Source of the DNA: Flavobacterium luminosum
GTDB lineage: Bacteria; Bacteroidota; Bacteroidia; Flavobacteriales; Flavobacteriaceae
Direction: 5' to 3'
Length of the DNA: 64,000 nt
Assembly: GCF_023635005.1 (NCBI RefSeq)
Contig: NZ_JAMLJM010000002.1
Location: forward strand, 310,001 to 374,000
Position 1 is the stretch's first letter; each line of letters starts with the position of its first letter. Below the pieces are notes generated by a model. The model was not told where the DNA came from. It was given only the letters and a program-made list of their open reading frames with translations, and searched no databases. Positions 46,779 through 53,910 of the stretch are shown here, piece by piece. Made by a program: the position numbers and the translations under genes.

Positions 46779-48473
46779 ATGTTTGATATTTCTGTATTAA
46801 AAGAAATGAAGCTTTCTGAGCTCCAAGAAATTGCAAAAATTGCAAAAATCAAGAGCTTTAAAACCTTAAAAAAGGATGAGTTGGTATACCAAATTTTAGA
46901 TTACCAAGCGGCAAATCCTGATAAAATTGCCCCAGAGACTAGTAATAAAGAAGAAAACAAGACAGAAGCTCCTAAAACCAAAAGAGTTAGAATTGTTAAA
47001 GAAGACACCAAAACAGGTGAAGTTAAAACAGCTAAACCTTCAGAAGAAAAAATAGCAGAACCACAAGCAATACTTTTTGAAGAATCGAAAGCAGAAGTAA
47101 TAGAAAAGAAAGAAGTAGAAATACGACACAAAGAAGCTAGAAATAATCGCTTTCAAAAGAACAAAGTTAAAAATACTCCAAAGGAAGTTGAAAATTCCTC
47201 CCCAGAAATAACAGTTGTTGCATCAGAATCCGAAACCTCGCCGGTAGTAGCAACAGAAGAAATTTCAACTCCAGAAGTTGAAACCCCAACAAACAATCCT
47301 AACCCGAAATTCAACAAGCACAAGAAAAATACTAATTTCCGTGAACCTGATTATGAATTTGAAGGAATCATAGAAAGTGAAGGTGTATTAGAAATGATGC
47401 CGGACGGTTACGGTTTTTTAAGATCCTCAGATTATAACTACTTGGCGTCGCCTGACGATATCTATTTATCGACATCTCAAATTCGTTTGTTCGGTTTAAA
47501 AACAGGAGATACGGTAAAAGGGGTGGTGAGACCTCCTAAAGAAGGAGAAAAATATTTTCCTTTGGTAAAAGTATTAAAAATCAACGGGCATGATCCTCAA
47601 GTCGTTCGCGATAGAGTTTCTTTTGACCATTTAACACCCGTTTTTCCAACAGAAAAGTTCAAATTAGCCGAAAAAGGAAGTTCGATTTCTACTAGAATTA
47701 TAGATTTGTTTTCTCCTATCGGGAAGGGGCAACGTGGTATGATAGTGGCACAACCTAAAACTGGTAAAACCATGTTGTTAAAGGACATTGCCAATGCCAT
47801 AGCTGCCAATCACCCTGAGGTGTACATGATTGTACTTTTAATAGATGAACGACCTGAAGAGGTAACCGATATGCAACGTAGTGTGCGTGCTGAAGTAATT
47901 GCTTCCACTTTCGATAGAGAGCCACAAGAACATGTGAAAATTGCCAATATTGTTTTAGAAAAAGCAAAACGCTTAGTGGAATGTGGACACGATGTAGTTA
48001 TTTTATTAGATTCGATTACTCGTTTGGCACGTGCTTATAATACTGTTCAGCCTGCATCCGGTAAAGTATTAAGTGGTGGTGTTGATGCCAATGCATTACA
48101 AAAACCTAAACGTTTCTTTGGTGCGGCTCGTAATGTTGAAAATGGAGGTTCTTTGAGCATCATTGCAACGGCCTTGACCGAAACTGGATCTAAAATGGAT
48201 GAAGTAATTTTTGAAGAATTCAAAGGAACGGGTAATATGGAATTACAATTAGATCGTAAGATTGCGAATCGTCGTATTTTCCCTGCGGTTGATTTAACTT
48301 CTTCAAGTACACGTCGAGACGATTTGTTACTAGATGAAAAAACAATTCAACGCATGTGGATTATGAGAAAATATTTGGCAGATATGAATTCGGTTGAAGC
48401 GATGGAATTTATTAATGACCGCATTAAGAAAACCAGAAACAACGAAGAATTTCTCATCTCGATGAATGATTAG
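46779..48473 (+). CDS. rho: Transcription termination factor Rho with long disordered insertion
   Basis: A 564-residue Rho. The N-terminal Rho_N domain (residues 1-45, [20 protein letters not shown]) is followed by a low-complexity Lys/Glu/Thr/Pro-rich insert (about 45-190), then the RNA-binding cold-shock-like domain (about 197-270, [20 protein letters not shown]) and the RecA-like motor with Walker [14 protein letters not shown], Walker [13 protein letters not shown], the Q-loop/R-loop segment [21 protein letters not shown]. coli Rho is 419 residues; the extra length is the insert. Bacteroides Rho carries a similar insert that has been reported to form condensates. A terminator follows directly at 48523. 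Confidence 0.97.
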
Positions 48474-48522: not shown

Positions 48523-48551
48523 AAACCGTTTCATTATGAAGCGGTTTTTTT
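48523..48551 (+). terminator. Terminator after rho
   Basis: Stem AAACCGTTTC / GAAGCGGTTT with one G-U pair and a 5-nt loop, followed by T residues, about 50 bp beyond the rho stop. Confidence 0.85.
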
Positions 48552-48554
48552 ATG

Positions 48555-48703
48555 ACCTTTTCCAGCTTTTCGCTTTAACCTACCTGATCAAAGCTTTTTT
48601 CTCTCTTCCACTAAAGGAGCTTCCTTCAATCGCTCTATAGATCGTATAAAAATAGCTTTGATTTTTTCGGGACTACCGCTATAACCAAGGGGCAATAGTT
48701 ACA
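48555..48703. repeat. Degenerate Flavobacterium-type intergenic repeat
   Basis: A block with more G and C than its flanks. Read on the minus strand it has the order GATTGAAGGAAGCTCC, then AAAGCTTTGATC, then AAAGCGAAAAGCTGGAAAAG, which resembles a family I remember from Flavobacterium (GATTGAAGCGGCATCC ... AGCGAAAAGCGGGAAA). A 9-bp inverted repeat (ATCAAAGCT 48587-48595 / AGCTTTGAT 48654-48662) can fold the interior. It follows the rho terminator. The gene-free stretch 48704-48924 is otherwise AT-rich with one dyad, TAAGATA/TATCTTA at 48795-48811, and no clear promoter. Confidence 0.5.
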
Positions 48704-48924
48704 AAATTTTATATTTTATTTTTTGGATTTTATATCAAGTTTATAAAATCTAAATTTTAACAAAATGTACGGAAAAACCGTAATATTTAATTGGTAAGAT
48801 ACTATATCTTATGCAGTCAAAATTGAATTTTTAATATTACTGTGAATAGCAATAATAAGTGGTGAATGAACTCCGAAACAAGCGACTCTAAATTCTTGAA
48901 AGTAGGAAAAAAATAAATTAAAAA

Positions 48925-49148
48925 ATGAAACAATTATTTATTGGGTTGCTTATGTTTGCAGGTAGCTCTATTGCTTTTGCAAATAATGGAGAAGTTAAAA
49001 AAAAATTAAAATGACTTTGCCTCCAGTCGACACCTGTACTATTACAGTGACTGTATTAGTTGATGGTTATACTTGTACAGGAACGGGTACTGCTACAGAT
49101 TGCAAGGAAGCTGAGAAAAAAGCAATTGCTAACATTAGTTGCAATTAA
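48925..49148 (+). CDS. Secreted four-cysteine small protein, reading frame split by a homopolymer
   Basis: Frame 1 (ATG 48925, TGA 49012-49014) encodes 29 residues that look like a signal peptide: MKQLFIGLLMFAGSSIAFA, then NNGEVKKK. Frame 2 (ATG 49011, TAA 49146-49148) encodes 45 residues with four cysteines: VDTCTITVTVLVDGYTCTGT, then ATDCKEAEKKAIANISCN. They overlap at ATGA just after a run of nine A (48997-49005). One added A, or two fewer, would join them to one protein of about 74 residues with cleavage after AFA. That suggests either a sequencing error, phase variation or slippage, or a recent frameshift. Two coupled genes are less likely. It lies before a GLPGLI protein and an outer-membrane receptor-like gene and ends at a terminator. 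No known family is recognised. Confidence 0.6.
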
Positions 49149-49158
49149 TAATTTCATA

Positions 49159-49193
49159 ATACAAAACAGAATTTTATTTCTGTTTTGTATTTA
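49159..49193 (+). terminator. Hairpin between the peptide gene and the GLPGLI gene
   Basis: A perfect 13-bp stem (ATACAAAACAGAA / TTCTGTTTTGTAT) with a 6-nt loop begins 10 bp past the peptide stop. The T tract afterwards is short, so it may be a leaky terminator or a 3' stabiliser. Confidence 0.65.
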
Positions 49194-49287
49194 AATAACT
49201 TTTAAATGGCCTTTTACAACGATTTTGTTTCAAACAATAAACAAAGGTGATGCCATTTATAACCTATAAACAATGCACATTATAATC

Positions 49288-50043
49288 ATGAAAAGTATTT
49301 ATTTATTATTTTTATTTTTAAATTTTAATTTTTATGCTCAGTTAAAGATAGAATATGATTACACAATGGGTAATCACGAATCAAGTACAATAAACAAGTG
49401 TTATTTATACACAGATGGTGTAAACTCTAAATTTGTTTATAGACGTATAATTAACGGAGAAACTGAAAGTATATTTACGCATATTAATCCTACGGTTTTA
49501 GAATTTATGAACTCTAAATTCAAGAAACAAGCAGGTGATAGTATAGGTAAAATTGTACTAAAAAAGATGAACTCTGATAGTATTTATTGTAGATATTCAA
49601 CAGCAGATAATAAGTACGTAAAAGTACTTGAAAAAAATACACCAATTATCAAAATTGTAGATGAGTTTAAAACGGTTTTTAATTACAATTGTCAAAAAGC
49701 TATTTTTGACTTCGGGGAAAGAGTTTTTGAAGTTTGGTTTACGAATGACATTCCAATTAGTGATGGGCCTTGGAAACTAAAAGGGCTTCCTGGTTTAGTT
49801 TTAAGTGCAAAAACTAATGATGGTATTCATCATTTTGAAATTACAAGTCTAAAGAATTGTCCTCCTTTCGAAAAGTCTTTTTTTGATTTCCCATTCGTGA
49901 AAATACTTTCTAAAGAAGTTTTTGTAGACGATTTCATAAGAATTACAGAGAATAAATTTAAATATCAAAAATCGCAAAAACCTGATGCTAATTCAACAAT
50001 GACAATTGATATGTTAGACATTCCAAAAACTCTTTTCAAATAG
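49288..50043 (+). CDS. GLPGLI family secreted protein
   Basis: A 251-residue protein with a signal peptide (MKSIYLLFLFLNFNFYAQ) and the hallmark motif GPWKLKGLPGLVL at about residues 161-173. The rest is rich in beta structure, as in the Bacteroidota GLPGLI family (formerly noted as a paralogous set in Porphyromonas gingivalis). No enzymatic function is established. An upstream in-frame ATG at 49273 adds five residues; ATG 49288 gives the best signal peptide. It lies between the split four-cysteine peptide gene and a TonB-receptor-like barrel gene on the same strand. GLPGLI proteins beside such receptors are a recurrent combination in Bacteroidota, by my recollection, so a shared export or uptake task is likely but undefined. 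Confidence 0.87.
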   Translation: MKSIYLLFLFLNFNFYAQLKIEYDYTMGNHESSTINKCYLYTDGVNSKFVYRRIINGETESIFTHINPTVLEFMNSKFKKQAGDSIGKIVLKKMNSDSIYCRYSTADNKYVKVLEKNTPIIKIVDEFKTVFNYNCQKAIFDFGERVFEVWFTNDIPISDGPWKLKGLPGLVLSAKTNDGIHHFEITSLKNCPPFEKSFFDFPFVKILSKEVFVDDFIRITENKFKYQKSQKPDANSTMTIDMLDIPKTLFK

Positions 50044-50305
50044 CATTGTATATCTGTTGCATTATCATCTTGTCAACAATTAAGTTTAAAATGTGTTTTG
50101 TAAAAGATGTTTGAAATTGAAATTTTATAATTACTGATTTAATAAATAATCAGTGTGATAGATATGTAAGACAACACCATTTTAGGAGTTAAATATAGAG
50201 CAGTAAATTTTAAAAGGATTTAAAAAAACAAAAATGCTGTAAATAAAAAAACTTAATAAAATCATATTAAACAATTTAGACATATCTTTAATAGTTTTTG
50301 AATAA

Positions 50306-52936
50306 ATGCCATTACAAAAATACTTTTTGTTGTTATTATTACTAAACCTAAGTGGTTTAACAGCGCAAACAATAAAAGGAAAAATAACTACCATTGATAA
50401 CAAAATTATCGAAACGGCCAGCATTATCATCAAAGATTCGATTAAAGCAAAAGGTATTAAAGAGTATACTATTGCTCTAAACGGAAACTACGAAATATTG
50501 CTCACCAAAGAGTACAAAACTATTTGTGTAGAAATAGCAGTTAGTAATTATTCAAAAGATAGTTTTACCATTTCAAACCCAGAAAAAGGTAAGACTTACG
50601 TTTATGATTTTTTATTAAAAAAAGACAAAGTCATTGCCATTCAAGAAGTCAAGATTTCCGCAAAAAGAAGATCTTATACAGAAGTAAAAGATACTGTAAA
50701 TTTCAATGTGGCTGCATACAAAGATGGATCGGATAGAAAAATTCAAGATGTTATAAAAAAATTACCTGGTATGGAAGTCAATGACAATACTGGCGAAATA
50801 AAATACAAAGGTATGTCAGTGGAGACTGTTCAATTAGATGGAGAAGATTTATTTAGTGGGAACTACACAATTGGCACCAAAAACATAAACGTTAACATGA
50901 TTGATCAAGTTCAAGCTATTGAAAACTTTGCGAGTAATAAATTACTTAAAGGCTTGGAAAGAGATGGAAAAGTAGCTTTAAACTTGAAACTCAAAAAAAA
51001 CATTATTGATGTTTCAGGAAGTGTTAATTCGTCTTTGGGCGCTTTTAAACAAGAAAAAATTGCAACCGACTCTGATGCTAATTTTTTATCAGTGTCATCA
51101 AAAATAAAATCGTTTGGAACATTAAGTTACAATAACATTGCTTTAAATTACTCACCTTTTGATTACTTCGGAAATTTCCAAAGCAAAAAAGATGGGCAAA
51201 ACCAAACATTCAAAAACAATAAAATTATTCCTGAATTCAGTTTTTTAAATATGCTTGATAATAAGCGAACTGTTTTAAACAATTCCATATTTGCAAATTA
51301 TAATATTTCGCTTAAAAAAAGCCCTAATACCAGCTATAAGTCTAACCTATACTTTGTAAGAGATGCCATATCTTCACTAAACTTTAGTGAGACAAACAAT
51401 ACAGTTGATGACCAAAATTTTACGACTAGCGATAGTAACAATGCAATTAAAAAACCGTTGTTACTGCGAGCCGATTTTAATATAAAATCGTTTGGATCAG
51501 AATCTTCTTCTATCGATTATGATGTTATGGTGAGTAAAGAGAAAGTAAAATCTAAAACAAAAATAATTCAAAATAAAGCGCTTTCATATAATACAAATTT
51601 ACTGAGTGATGATTTTTTTTTAAAGTCAAAAATCGTTTATACAAAAAGAATATCCGATAATAAAGCATTTCAATTAACAACTCATCAAACCTTTGATGTA
51701 CTAAATCAACAGTATAAAATTACACCGCAAGAATCAAATACTGCTGCGGTAAATGCCATCCAAGACATAGAATCAAGAAAAACATTTTTCGACCTACAAA
51801 GTAGTATCATTGGAAAAATAAAGCGCGCAAAATATAGTATGAACTTAGGTTTAGAGTATACAAGCAATCCATTGAATTCATCATTGGAAGATTTAACGCT
51901 TTCAATACCCATTAGCACTAATGCAGTTGTATTTGAGAAAAATAAAGTATTTTTAAATAATAGCTTCGATTATGATTGGGGCAACTGGCGAATATTTTCA
52001 ACTTTAAATCTATCTTTACTCAATCGTTATTTAAAAAAACAGTCGCGAGTTAATGATTTTATTGTAGAACCAGAGATTAATTTAAATTATAAATTTAGCA
52101 GAATTTCTAGTTTTAACATTAGTCTTAGTTCAAAAATAAATCCGCAAGCTGACAATTTTGTTTATGCAAATGAAGTTCTAATTAATAATAGAACAACAAT
52201 TAAAAACACTCCTAGTTTAGCTTTGCAAAAAACAGCTACTTATAATGCGAATTACAATCTTTATGATTTATCAAATCAATTCCAAATTAATATTGGCATA
52301 AATTATTCAGATAATAAAGGTGATTTTTTTTCTAATATTAACATCGATCAAAACAATACACAAATCGAATATTTCTTCTTAAACGAAAAATTTAACAATC
52401 GTAGTTTTAATTTTATGATTGAGAAATATTTACCCTTCATGGAATCTACCATTCGCTTTAAAACACTATACAGTATTTCCAATTATAAAAATTTCATAAA
52501 TTATTCTGAAATTAGAGATAATAAAAGTAAAAATTTAATTAATGAGCTATTCTTAAAATCAGCCTTCGATGGTAAATTCAACTTTGAAAATGTTTTTAAA
52601 TACAATTTAAGACTAACTATTAACAACGAAAACCAAAATTTTGAAAACATAAATTATAATAATTCTTTCAAACTATTATTCAAACCTAATAAAAAGTGGT
52701 TCGCCAACGCTGTTTACGATATCTATTCCACCAATCAAAAAACTAAATACTCCTTTATAGATTTTTTAATAAAATATACTCCATCGGATAAAAGATTTGC
52801 TTTTAGTCTTGCAGGTAAAAACCTTTTAAACAATGAAAATTTCATAGAAATACAAACCTCTGATTATTATACCAGTATTTACGGAAGTAATATTATGCCG
52901 CGAACTTTATTAATTTCTTGTAATTATAGTTTTTAA
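50306..52936 (+). CDS. TonB-dependent receptor-like outer-membrane beta-barrel protein
   Basis: An 876-residue outer-membrane protein. After a signal peptide (MPLQKYFLLLLLLNLSGLTA) come a carboxypeptidase-regulatory-like beta sandwich (about residues 22-115), a plug-like domain (about 130-230: KIQDVIKKLPGMEVNDNTGE, then VQLDGEDLFSGNY) and a large barrel to the terminal Phe (SCNYSF). This is the OMP_b-brl_3 architecture, related to TonB receptors but without a clear TonB box. It lies 262 bp after the GLPGLI gene; the gap 50044-50305 shows no terminator or promoter that I recognise, so cotranscription is possible. It could import or, as speculation, export a ligand linked to the neighbouring secreted peptide. 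The coding region is more Asn/Lys-rich than the housekeeping genes around it. Confidence 0.9.
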   Translation: MPLQKYFLLLLLLNLSGLTAQTIKGKITTIDNKIIETASIIIKDSIKAKGIKEYTIALNGNYEILLTKEYKTICVEIAVSNYSKDSFTISNPEKGKTYVYDFLLKKDKVIAIQEVKISAKRRSYTEVKDTVNFNVAAYKDGSDRKIQDVIKKLPGMEVNDNTGEIKYKGMSVETVQLDGEDLFSGNYTIGTKNINVNMIDQVQAIENFASNKLLKGLERDGKVALNLKLKKNIIDVSGSVNSSLGAFKQEKIATDSDANFLSVSSKIKSFGTLSYNNIALNYSPFDYFGNFQSKKDGQNQTFKNNKIIPEFSFLNMLDNKRTVLNNSIFANYNISLKKSPNTSYKSNLYFVRDAISSLNFSETNNTVDDQNFTTSDSNNAIKKPLLLRADFNIKSFGSESSSIDYDVMVSKEKVKSKTKIIQNKALSYNTNLLSDDFFLKSKIVYTKRISDNKAFQLTTHQTFDVLNQQYKITPQESNTAAVNAIQDIESRKTFFDLQSSIIGKIKRAKYSMNLGLEYTSNPLNSSLEDLTLSIPISTNAVVFEKNKVFLNNSFDYDWGNWRIFSTLNLSLLNRYLKKQSRVNDFIVEPEINLNYKFSRISSFNISLSSKINPQADNFVYANEVLINNRTTIKNTPSLALQKTATYNANYNLYDLSNQFQINIGINYSDNKGDFFSNINIDQNNTQIEYFFLNEKFNNRSFNFMIEKYLPFMESTIRFKTLYSISNYKNFINYSEIRDNKSKNLINELFLKSAFDGKFNFENVFKYNLRLTINNENQNFENINYNNSFKLLFKPNKKWFANAVYDIYSTNQKTKYSFIDFLIKYTPSDKRFAFSLAGKNLLNNENFIEIQTSDYYTSIYGSNIMPRTLLISCNYSF

Positions 52937-53151: not shown

Positions 53152-53910
53152 TCACCTCGTAAACACCAAAGTATTCCCTTTTGAAAGATTGGCATCAAAA
53201 AGATAACCTTCATAATTGAATCCTTTTAGTTCCTCTAGAGTTTCAACATTGTGGTCTAAAATATAGCGAACCATCAAACCACGAGCTTTTTTGGCAAAAA
53301 ACGAGATCACTTTTAATTTTCCGTCCTTATAATCTTTAAACTCAGGAGTAATTACAGGAACCTTTAATTTTTTCGTATCAAGAACCGAAAAATATTCGTT
53401 ACTGGCTAGATTAAGAAATAACTCGTCTGATTTTAATTCTTTGTTTAATGCATCGGTAAGGGTCTCTTTCCAGAAAGCATATAAATTCTTGTGATTTCCA
53501 ATAGGTAATGATGTTCCCATTTCTAAACGATACGGCTGCATTAAATCTAATGGTTTTAAAATTCCATATTGCCCTGAAAGAATACGTAGCTTTTCTTGTA
53601 AAGTATCTAGCTTTTCTTCCGGTATAGTATATGCATCTAGACCCGTGTAAACATCACCATTGAAAGCGTAAATGGCAGGTCGAGCATTTTCTTGGTTAAA
53701 AGGAGTTTTAAAATTTTTATTTCGCTGCCAGTTTAATTCCGCTAACTTATCAGAAATATGCATTAATTCCGATAAATCCTTTGGAGTCAAATTCTGTAAA
53801 ACAGAAACAATTTCTTTTGATTGTTTTAGAAAAGATGGGGTTGAAAATCTTTTGTTAGGTAATGGAGATTCAAAATCCAACGATTTGGCCGGTGATATCA
53901 CTATTTTCAT
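53152..53910 (-). CDS. yaaA: Peroxide stress protein YaaA
   Basis: A 252-residue protein of the YaaA/DUF328 family, which in E. coli lowers free iron and limits peroxide damage. The N-terminal signature MKIVISPAKSLDFESPLP is exact, with later family segments QYGILKPLDLMQPYRLEMGT and FFAKKARGLMVRYILDH. Length is normal. The family also includes DNA-binding members, so the mechanism is not settled. It is transcribed leftwards as a single gene; a -7 element lies at 53933-53940, and no OxyR-type site can be recognised by eye. Confidence 0.95.
   Translation of the reverse strand: MKIVISPAKSLDFESPLPNKRFSTPSFLKQSKEIVSVLQNLTPKDLSELMHISDKLAELNWQRNKNFKTPFNQENARPAIYAFNGDVYTGLDAYTIPEEKLDTLQEKLRILSGQYGILKPLDLMQPYRLEMGTSLPIGNHKNLYAFWKETLTDALNKELKSDELFLNLASNEYFSVLDTKKLKVPVITPEFKDYKDGKLKVISFFAKKARGLMVRYILDHNVETLEELKGFNYEGYLFDANLSKGNTLVFTR

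Follow-up and report, generated by a model that had tools for sequence, protein, structure and literature searches.

A peptide, GLPGLI and outer-membrane barrel gene trio in Bacteroidota and exchange of its peptide-GLPGLI module

The trio in the window and its products

A 64,000-nucleotide stretch of the Flavobacterium luminosum genome (contig NZ_JAMLJM010000002.1, positions 310,001 to 374,000; hereafter the window) carries, between rho and yaaA, three features on the same strand: a small peptide gene, a gene for a GLPGLI protein and a gene for an outer-membrane barrel of the TonB-dependent-transporter type. We found that this gene order is carried by many genera and that, within a clade of related barrels, the mature peptide and the GLPGLI protein have been exchanged together, in some pairs along with the N-terminal domain of the barrel.

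A preliminary description of the window had proposed a secreted peptide with four cysteines. Both parts of such a peptide exist, but they do not form one open reading frame (ORF). The signal-peptide part (48925..49014, plus strand) runs for 29 codons to a TGA stop and encodes what appears by eye to be a Sec-type signal peptide, ending at SSIAFA before NN. The four-cysteine mature part (49011..49148, plus strand) encodes 45 amino acids from an internal ATG in another frame. The break between the two frames coincides with nine consecutive A residues at 48997-49005 and probably silences the gene; what is left in the window would then be a remnant consisting of partner and gate, in a genome that has two other trios. 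When the peptide was read through as one sequence, matches were obtained in 74 of 199 genomes of the genus (its own included) at an E value of 1, nearly all of them weak. The four best non-self matches (E values of 0.0034, 0.0041, 0.0059 and 0.027) all lie directly upstream of a GLPGLI-barrel pair, and therefore we consider the gene to be more than a chance reading; of the next three matches, the one examined (G166, E value of 0.032) was an unrelated gene.

AlphaFold2 predicted a beta hairpin followed by a helix for the four-cysteine part (mean predicted local distance difference test [pLDDT] score of 85.7, predicted template modelling [pTM] score of 0.56, 10 sequences). Searches of the PDB with this model yielded nothing beyond weak fragments resembling S5 and dsRBD (best E value of 0.32 in Foldseek; best Z of 5.3 in VIA). 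A weak dsrm match of the peptide (E value of 0.031) was read as the common beta-beta-alpha arrangement. The Bacteroidota-type -7 promoter motif was found before 11 of 63 peptide genes, compared with a shuffled mean of 5.8 and a shuffled maximum of 13, and is unconvincing; the region upstream of the window peptide holds one TAnnTTTG, but no copy with a suitably spaced TTG.

The second gene (49273..50043, plus strand; the start may be 49288) encodes a 256-residue product whose assignment to the GLPGLI family was confirmed by TIGR01200 (104.3 bits against a cut-off of 50) and which also matches Porph_ging (36.8 bits against a cut-off of 25). Proteins of the GLPGLI family occur commonly in Bacteroidota and are not known to have a role; the parts of the literature that name them, as far as these were available, give no function. 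A structure model built with 53 sequences (pLDDT of 81.6, pTM of 0.77) matched best the N-terminal domain of PNGase F-II (Foldseek E value of 1e-8, Z of 15.5), followed by LolA, RseB, MucB and VioE (E values of 8e-6 to 1e-3; Z of 8-11), with Foldseek E values of 7.6e-6 for LolA3, 2.8e-5 for RseB and 3.7e-5 for LolA. In VIA, the LolA and RseB/MucB comparisons gave Z of 8-10 and root-mean-square deviations of 3.5-5.2 Å over 117-144 aligned residues. The GLPGLI protein is thus predicted to have a LolA/RseB-like fold, and it is the fold that is shared, not the function of LolA. The titles of PDB entries 6in9 and 6jau state that MucB binds MucA. The protein carries a signal peptide and no lipobox by eye, and therefore its location is likely to be periplasmic, as is the case for LolA, RseB and MucB; the GLPGLI protein differs from these in being only 6-13% identical in sequence, in its linkage to a peptide and a barrel and in its fast evolution. 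The PNGase F-II N-terminal domain (4r4x, 4r4z; 7zgn) is the closest solved relative by both sequence and fold and the sole part of PNGase F-II that Pfam matches in the GLPGLI protein, whose PDB matches cover its N-terminal part. In PNGase F-II, however, this domain forms part of an N-glycanase of 530-560 residues, and identity of the 256-residue protein as a glycanase was rejected, since the catalytic domain was not matched.

The third gene (50306..52936, plus strand) encodes an 876-residue barrel, assigned by family alignment; its N-terminal periplasmic domain and the start of the plug correspond to 50369..50725 (approximately residues 22-140), a position transferred from relatives. The proposal that this is a plug-barrel protein held in part. 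A CarboxypepD_reg N-terminal domain was found in 16 of 18 scanned family members, but not at an E value of 0.01 in the window copy, whose match to the plug family PF07715 was sub-threshold (E value of 0.042; 14.8 bits against a cut-off of 23.9); the plug domain was not among the matches at an E value of 0.01 for the 18 members. By eye, an LxEVV motif similar to a TonB box can be seen ahead of the plug. A profile of the barrel family gave two PDB matches, both to SusC homologues and both in the N-terminal domain (SusC 8aa4, E value of 4.8e-10), and at the family level the N-terminal domain is of the SusC/Oar type. Among TonB-dependent transporters, this barrel stands apart. No swap partner is known for the window's own barrel, to which the closest relative is 40% identical.

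Recurrence of the trio and the peptide family

Recurrence of the three-gene order in other genomes had been set beforehand as the check on the proposed system, and it was borne out in many genera. Barrel relatives at an E value of 1e-20 or better were present in 37 of 101 genomes of the genus searched, and the order of signal-peptide ORF, GLPGLI gene and barrel gene was seen in many of the upstream regions fetched for them. Named carriers of the full trio include Flavobacterium, Cellulophaga, Aureivirga, Marivirga, Pedobacter duraquae, Saprospiraceae and Bacteroidales. Of 85 GLPGLI genes linked to a barrel, 33 had a small signal-peptide ORF upstream, compared with 8 of 383 other genes (Fisher P value of 3e-20) and 4 of 114 barrels; the 85 genes came from the genus searches and a scan of named genomes, with some genomes represented twice. 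After 60 loci were added and duplicates removed, 165 unique barrels remained. For 154 of them, 1 kb or more of upstream sequence was present, and 136 of these 154 had a GLPGLI gene there; a peptide was detected in 65 of the 133 loci with at least 400 nucleotides before the GLPGLI gene; since the barrels were found with models of the same family, these shares refer to this family and do not extend to all outer-membrane barrels. In 52 of 142 loci, the end of one gene of the GLPGLI-barrel pair overlaps the other. In the Pedobacter loci L146, L164 and L168 we observed distant barrel relatives (approximately 920-940 residues) arranged as tandem pairs, with no GLPGLI gene detected there.

The genome of the window contains three GLPGLI genes at an E value of 1e-5, and all three lie within a trio. 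The second trio (L171; G000:C1:6000-19000, cassette end 8310) has an intact 87-residue peptide, and the third (L246; G000:C1, approximately 317090 onward) has a 79-residue peptide read from an internal ATG and a barrel that matches the profile with an E value of 7e-85 although it is truncated where the fetched sequence ends.

A signal peptide resembling MKKLFL...AFAN is common to the peptides, whose median length is 88 residues. After residue 22, 57 of the 65 contain two, four or six cysteines, which amounts to 57 of the 64 that bear cysteine (P value of 8e-11); this even number points to disulfides and not to metal sites. By eye, several classes of mature part can be told apart. That of the window has a C-T-V-T hairpin and a cysteine-capped helix, and others show the patterns CRWRxC..CTEWxxxC, CxxCxxC..CxxC, SCGxxGxxC..helix..C and CC..C..C. 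None of 10 peptides picked from different classes reached a Pfam or NCBIfam cut-off, and one peptide gave a sub-threshold match to colicin_Z_Cterm (13 bits against a cut-off of 50). In loci L172 and L174, signal peptides that are 95% alike precede mature parts that are 20% alike.

We considered whether the small ORFs found before GLPGLI genes are merely noise, and that of the window an accident of reading. In favor of this are the broken frame of the window ORF, the lack of any Pfam or NCBIfam family at cut-off and the background of the peptide heuristic, which is 2% (8 of 383) and makes a few of the 65 peptides probably false. However, the 18-fold enrichment of small ORFs contradicts such an explanation at the family level, as do the intact peptide in the second trio of the genome and the open one in the third, the even cysteine numbers, the recurring sequence classes and the confidently predicted small fold, and we regard chance as highly improbable.

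Exchange of the mature peptide and GLPGLI module

The clearest example of exchange is provided by L178 and L182, which come from congeners (G470 and G251) and have common flanks. Throughout the upstream flank, as far as the signal-peptide start, the DNA is 88-100% identical, and 15 of 20 signal-peptide residues are alike. Identity then falls to 21-66% through the mature peptide, the GLPGLI gene and the first 410 or so nucleotides of the barrel gene and returns to 78-100% in the rest of the barrel gene and the downstream flank. In the proteins, the barrel core is 96% identical, the N-terminal domain 37% and the GLPGLI protein 27%, with identity recovering near barrel residue 140, past the TonB-box-like motif. 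The pairs L172/L174, L073/L074, L139/L172 and L074/L110 have a similar shape of exchange with less sharp edges; L073 lies too near a contig end for its peptide to be present. The pair L253/L265 was dropped as an example of module transfer because its near-identical tract extends into the barrel.

Similar dissociation was seen across the collection. Among 212 locus pairs with barrel cores at least 55% identical, the GLPGLI proteins were less than 45% identical in 182. In these, mean identities were 64% for the core, 39% for the N-terminal domain and 31% for GLPGLI, compared with 72%, 58% and 66% in the other 30 pairs. Among pairs of the clade with cores at least 70% identical, GLPGLI identity was below 45% in 55 of 59. 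The converse was found for L074 and L172, which share GLPGLI (67%) and the mature peptide (63%) on barrel cores that are approximately 60% alike; the nearest barrels for which a peptide is known (L250, 83%; L174, 82%) carry unrelated modules.

In order to separate the two partners statistically, we used partial Mantel tests on the 19-locus clade of the L074 barrel, leaving out L147 (its own GLPGLI gene is broken) and L247-L249, L251, L258, L260 and L266 (duplicate or partial). Peptide similarity followed GLPGLI given the barrel (r of 0.85; 0 of 5000 permutations) and did not follow the barrel given GLPGLI (r of -0.03; 2970 of 5000). When near-orthologous pairs, or broken genes, or additionally L172 were left out, r for GLPGLI was 0.64-0.72 (0 of 5000 each), and across the four variants r for the barrel given GLPGLI was -0.07 to -0.01. 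These data show that the mature peptide and GLPGLI are exchanged together within the clade, and that in some pairs the N-terminal domain of the barrel moves with them.

Several observations limit how far this can be generalized. When all 62 peptide loci were included, where most mature parts cannot be aligned, the partial Mantel correlation between peptide and GLPGLI was weak (r of 0.063; 86 of 2000), and the peptide also followed the barrel (r of 0.198; 0 of 2000). Even so, in 17 of these 62 loci the closest locus by GLPGLI was also the closest by peptide, compared with 7 of 62 for the barrel core. Barrel residues 0-125 have the lowest similarity in the swap pairs (29-48%), but they also dip in control pairs (45-72%). 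Finally, in the Bacteroidales, L113 (Muribaculaceae), L131 (Alistipes) and L155 (Porphyromonadaceae) are mosaic with no peptide detected, as in L113/L155, where the core is 82% identical and GLPGLI 31%; these loci may have a different cargo. In Pedobacter pairs lacking a detected peptide, GLPGLI and barrel change in step (L118/L162, core 77% and GLPGLI 73%; L153/L162, 94% and 87%).

Some loci carry more than one module. In L085, L173 and L185, peptide-GLPGLI units are repeated in tandem before one barrel, and at least two consecutive GLPGLI genes are present in 24 of 142 loci, the extra ones often without a peptide. In L077, L112, L122, L175 and L217, rows of three to five mostly peptide-less GLPGLI genes stand before one barrel. 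Such rows are like spare immunity or carrier genes.

By hand reading of loci without an open peptide (one set of 29, one of 20 and some further loci), a procedure from which breaks in mature parts would mostly escape, we recognized 11 loci with a peptide gene broken in or near the signal peptide (the window, L068, L100, L111, L147, L180, L190, L204, L205, L253 and L265). The breaks in the window, L111, L180, L204 and L205 are at or near runs of A or T close to the start, where phase variation through these runs or assembly error is possible. Plain stop or start changes are apparent in L068, L100, L147, L190, L253 and L265, and phase variation as the general cause was rejected on account of these six. 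For comparison, 2 of 73 matches to the barrel contained internal stops. The barrel of L111, L190 and L265 and the GLPGLI gene of L147 are also broken or split, and therefore only in the 7 loci with full-length GLPGLI and barrel has the peptide been lost while its partners were kept.

These losses bear on the proposal that an outer-membrane complex with other cargo contains the peptide and GLPGLI as subunits, in which case the peptide would be a fast-evolving, dispensable accessory. The 7 loci, the low frequency of stops in barrels and the 68 of 133 GLPGLI-barrel pairs without a detected peptide are consistent with it. The close statistical association between mature peptide and GLPGLI in one clade, the tandem peptide-GLPGLI units and the retention of signal peptides on changed mature parts (L172/L174) argue against it, and we consider it unlikely.

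Ratios of nonsynonymous to synonymous change (dN/dS) were calculated for four close pairs. They were 1.10, 0.59, undefined (0 synonymous and 3 other changes) and 0.35 for the mature peptide; 0.16, 0.08, 0.48 and 0.16 for GLPGLI; 0.07, 0.12, 1.88 and 0.32 for the barrel N-terminal domain; and 0.17, 0.03, 0.18 and 0.13 for the barrel core.

Candidate function and related systems

The joint change of peptide and GLPGLI means that they probably bind each other, and the observation that the periplasmic domain of the barrel can change too suggests that the pair docks there. The wall and loops of the barrel stay the same, which suggests that specificity is set inside the envelope and not at the outer face; therefore outward movement is favored over uptake, and phage escape is disfavored as the driver. 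Peptide-plus-immunity systems show diversifying exchange, spare partner genes and loss of the peptide with the partner kept. The trio shows exchange of this kind, spare GLPGLI genes and such losses, and therefore we prefer antagonism to a signal-receptor role, which we place second.

We hypothesize that the signal peptide would send the peptide to the periplasm via Sec, where it would fold as a disulfide-type mini-domain. The periplasmic GLPGLI protein, with its LolA/RseB fold, would bind its particular peptide as a carrier and probably also serve as an immunity protein, so that GLPGLI is proposed to be a dedicated peptide partner, carrier and/or immunity. The complex might then dock at the periplasmic N-terminal domain of the barrel, proposed here by analogy as an Oar-like TonB-dependent exit gate, and the peptide would leave through it with TonB power, as PopC does via Oar in Myxococcus. 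Outside, it would act on competitors in the manner of a bacteriocin, driving exchange of the peptide-GLPGLI module. Binding, direction, use of TonB and antagonism are the steps that we infer, and we put the whole chain forward tentatively, at somewhat below an even chance. A broader formulation, to which we give less credence, is that of a polymorphic class of peptide export across Bacteroidota, in which disulfide mini-proteins, each with its own LolA-fold partner as carrier and immunity, would use a shared TonB-dependent gate with an N-terminal extension (NTE), and in which peptide, partner and the periplasmic domain of the gate would be exchanged as a cassette. The cassette is best read as being under diversifying selection, either bacteriocin-like or signal-like.

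A number of findings weigh against this interpretation. The peptide gene of the window itself lacks an open frame, searches against toxin, immunity and bacteriocin families gave no match at cut-off, and dN/dS of the mature peptide was not shown to exceed 1, the four-pair values being no test of positive selection. The 68 of 133 pairs in which the heuristic detects no peptide imply that GLPGLI-barrel has, or had, other work. OMP_b-brl_3 was matched in 2 of the 18 barrels (best E value of 4.6e-4) and NCBIfam in 0 of 18, and for this reason TonB dependence is only inferred.

The nearest precedent is Oar of Myxococcus xanthus, described in the passages available from PMC6434023 as an NTE-plug-barrel protein with a CarboxypepD_reg domain that is required for secretion of PopC. 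It resembles the trio barrel in the order of CarboxypepD_reg extension, plug and barrel and in outward movement of a periplasmic protein, which for the trio is proposed. However, PopC lacks a signal peptide, and the Oar passages mention neither a LolA-fold partner nor module exchange. According to the same passages, Oar secretes even without its NTE (PMC6434023); therefore the precedent gives no support for the N-terminal domain as a docking site.

An alternative is a pherotype-like system, in which the peptide is a secreted signal that GLPGLI and the barrel N-terminal domain process or receive. In the comQXPA pherotype loci, a peptide and its partners are replaced as one block between conserved flanks. 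In favor of this alternative, the replacement of peptide and partners as a unit within conserved flanks resembles that polymorphism, and the variable partners of the trio are periplasmic. In contrast, comQXPA serves Gram-positive quorum sensing with a kinase; in the gene maps no sensor kinase, anti-sigma or sigma factor was noticed beside the cassettes, where no aimed search was made. The N-terminal domain is moreover of the CarboxypepD_reg type and not the STN signalling type, a distinction drawn in the passages available from PMC6434023. We judge a pherotype role to be improbable.

The cassette was also compared with scavenger uptake, in which a secreted peptide would capture a ligand (metal, haem or other) and re-enter via the barrel. 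HasA/HasR is a system of this kind, with a secreted scavenger returning through a barrel. Small secreted cysteine-bearing proteins beside a barrel of TonB-dependent type fit this proposal, as do CxxC patterns in some peptides (L109, L190 and L201). The mature parts are, however, very diverse and mostly differ between loci with barrel cores 72-83% identical, and the barrel changes least and the periplasmic parts most, the reverse of what an outer-surface receptor predicts. The even cysteine numbers also point away from metal sites, and we consider scavenging quite unlikely. Of the earlier proposal of a peptide secretion or uptake system, the gene linkage stands, and secretion fits better than uptake because the peptide-linked changes fall in periplasmic parts and not in the barrel wall or loops; for a metal-binding product we found no support.

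Returning to the preferred bacteriocin-like export, pediocin-like bacteriocins and bacteroidetocins are small disulfide-bearing strand-plus-helix peptides encoded beside a partner gene. The cassette peptides are alike in being small, of disulfide type and strand-plus-helix, with an adjacent partner gene. They differ in having a Sec signal peptide instead of a double-glycine leader and a LolA-like partner, with no peptidase-ABC exporter noticed beside the cassette. The parts of the trio have known relatives, and the combination and its exchange look undescribed: in the openly licensed literature, judged mostly from listings, we found no description of the trio, the peptide-GLPGLI link or the module exchange.

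The link to a peptide and a barrel makes GLPGLI function directly testable, and if the export model is true, an orphan family gains a function. If movement is outward, a route of Sec, LolA fold and TonB gate joins the few known protein routes across the outer membrane, and the peptides form a large and diverse set of small disulfide-type candidates for antimicrobials or signals. Nature has, through exchange within the block, cleanly tested which parts have to fit one another, and the system may serve bacterial rivalry or recognition.

The placement of the trio was confirmed by NCBIfam equivalog matches of both neighbors, rho (46779-48473) before it and yaaA (53152-53910, minus strand) beyond it. 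The preliminary description had also suggested an accessory insertion flanked by repeat relics at 48555 and 53058. For pieces taken from these two places, no second copy was found in the window with up to three mismatches allowed, positions 48530-48720 are single copy across the whole genome, and the 16-mer from 53057 has one further match elsewhere in the genome with 2 mismatches. An insertion flanked by repeats is thus unsupported. In 12 relatives, no rho match was found within the stretches of 7-9 kb around yaaA. A megablast search gave no match that would indicate a plasmid origin. No PADLOC anti-phage defense family was matched at an E value of 0.1 by any of 3 proteins. On the opposite strand upstream of the cassette, a small gene with a helix-turn-helix look by eye was observed in L062 (7696-8055), L071 (8960-9283) and L079 (5533-5871).

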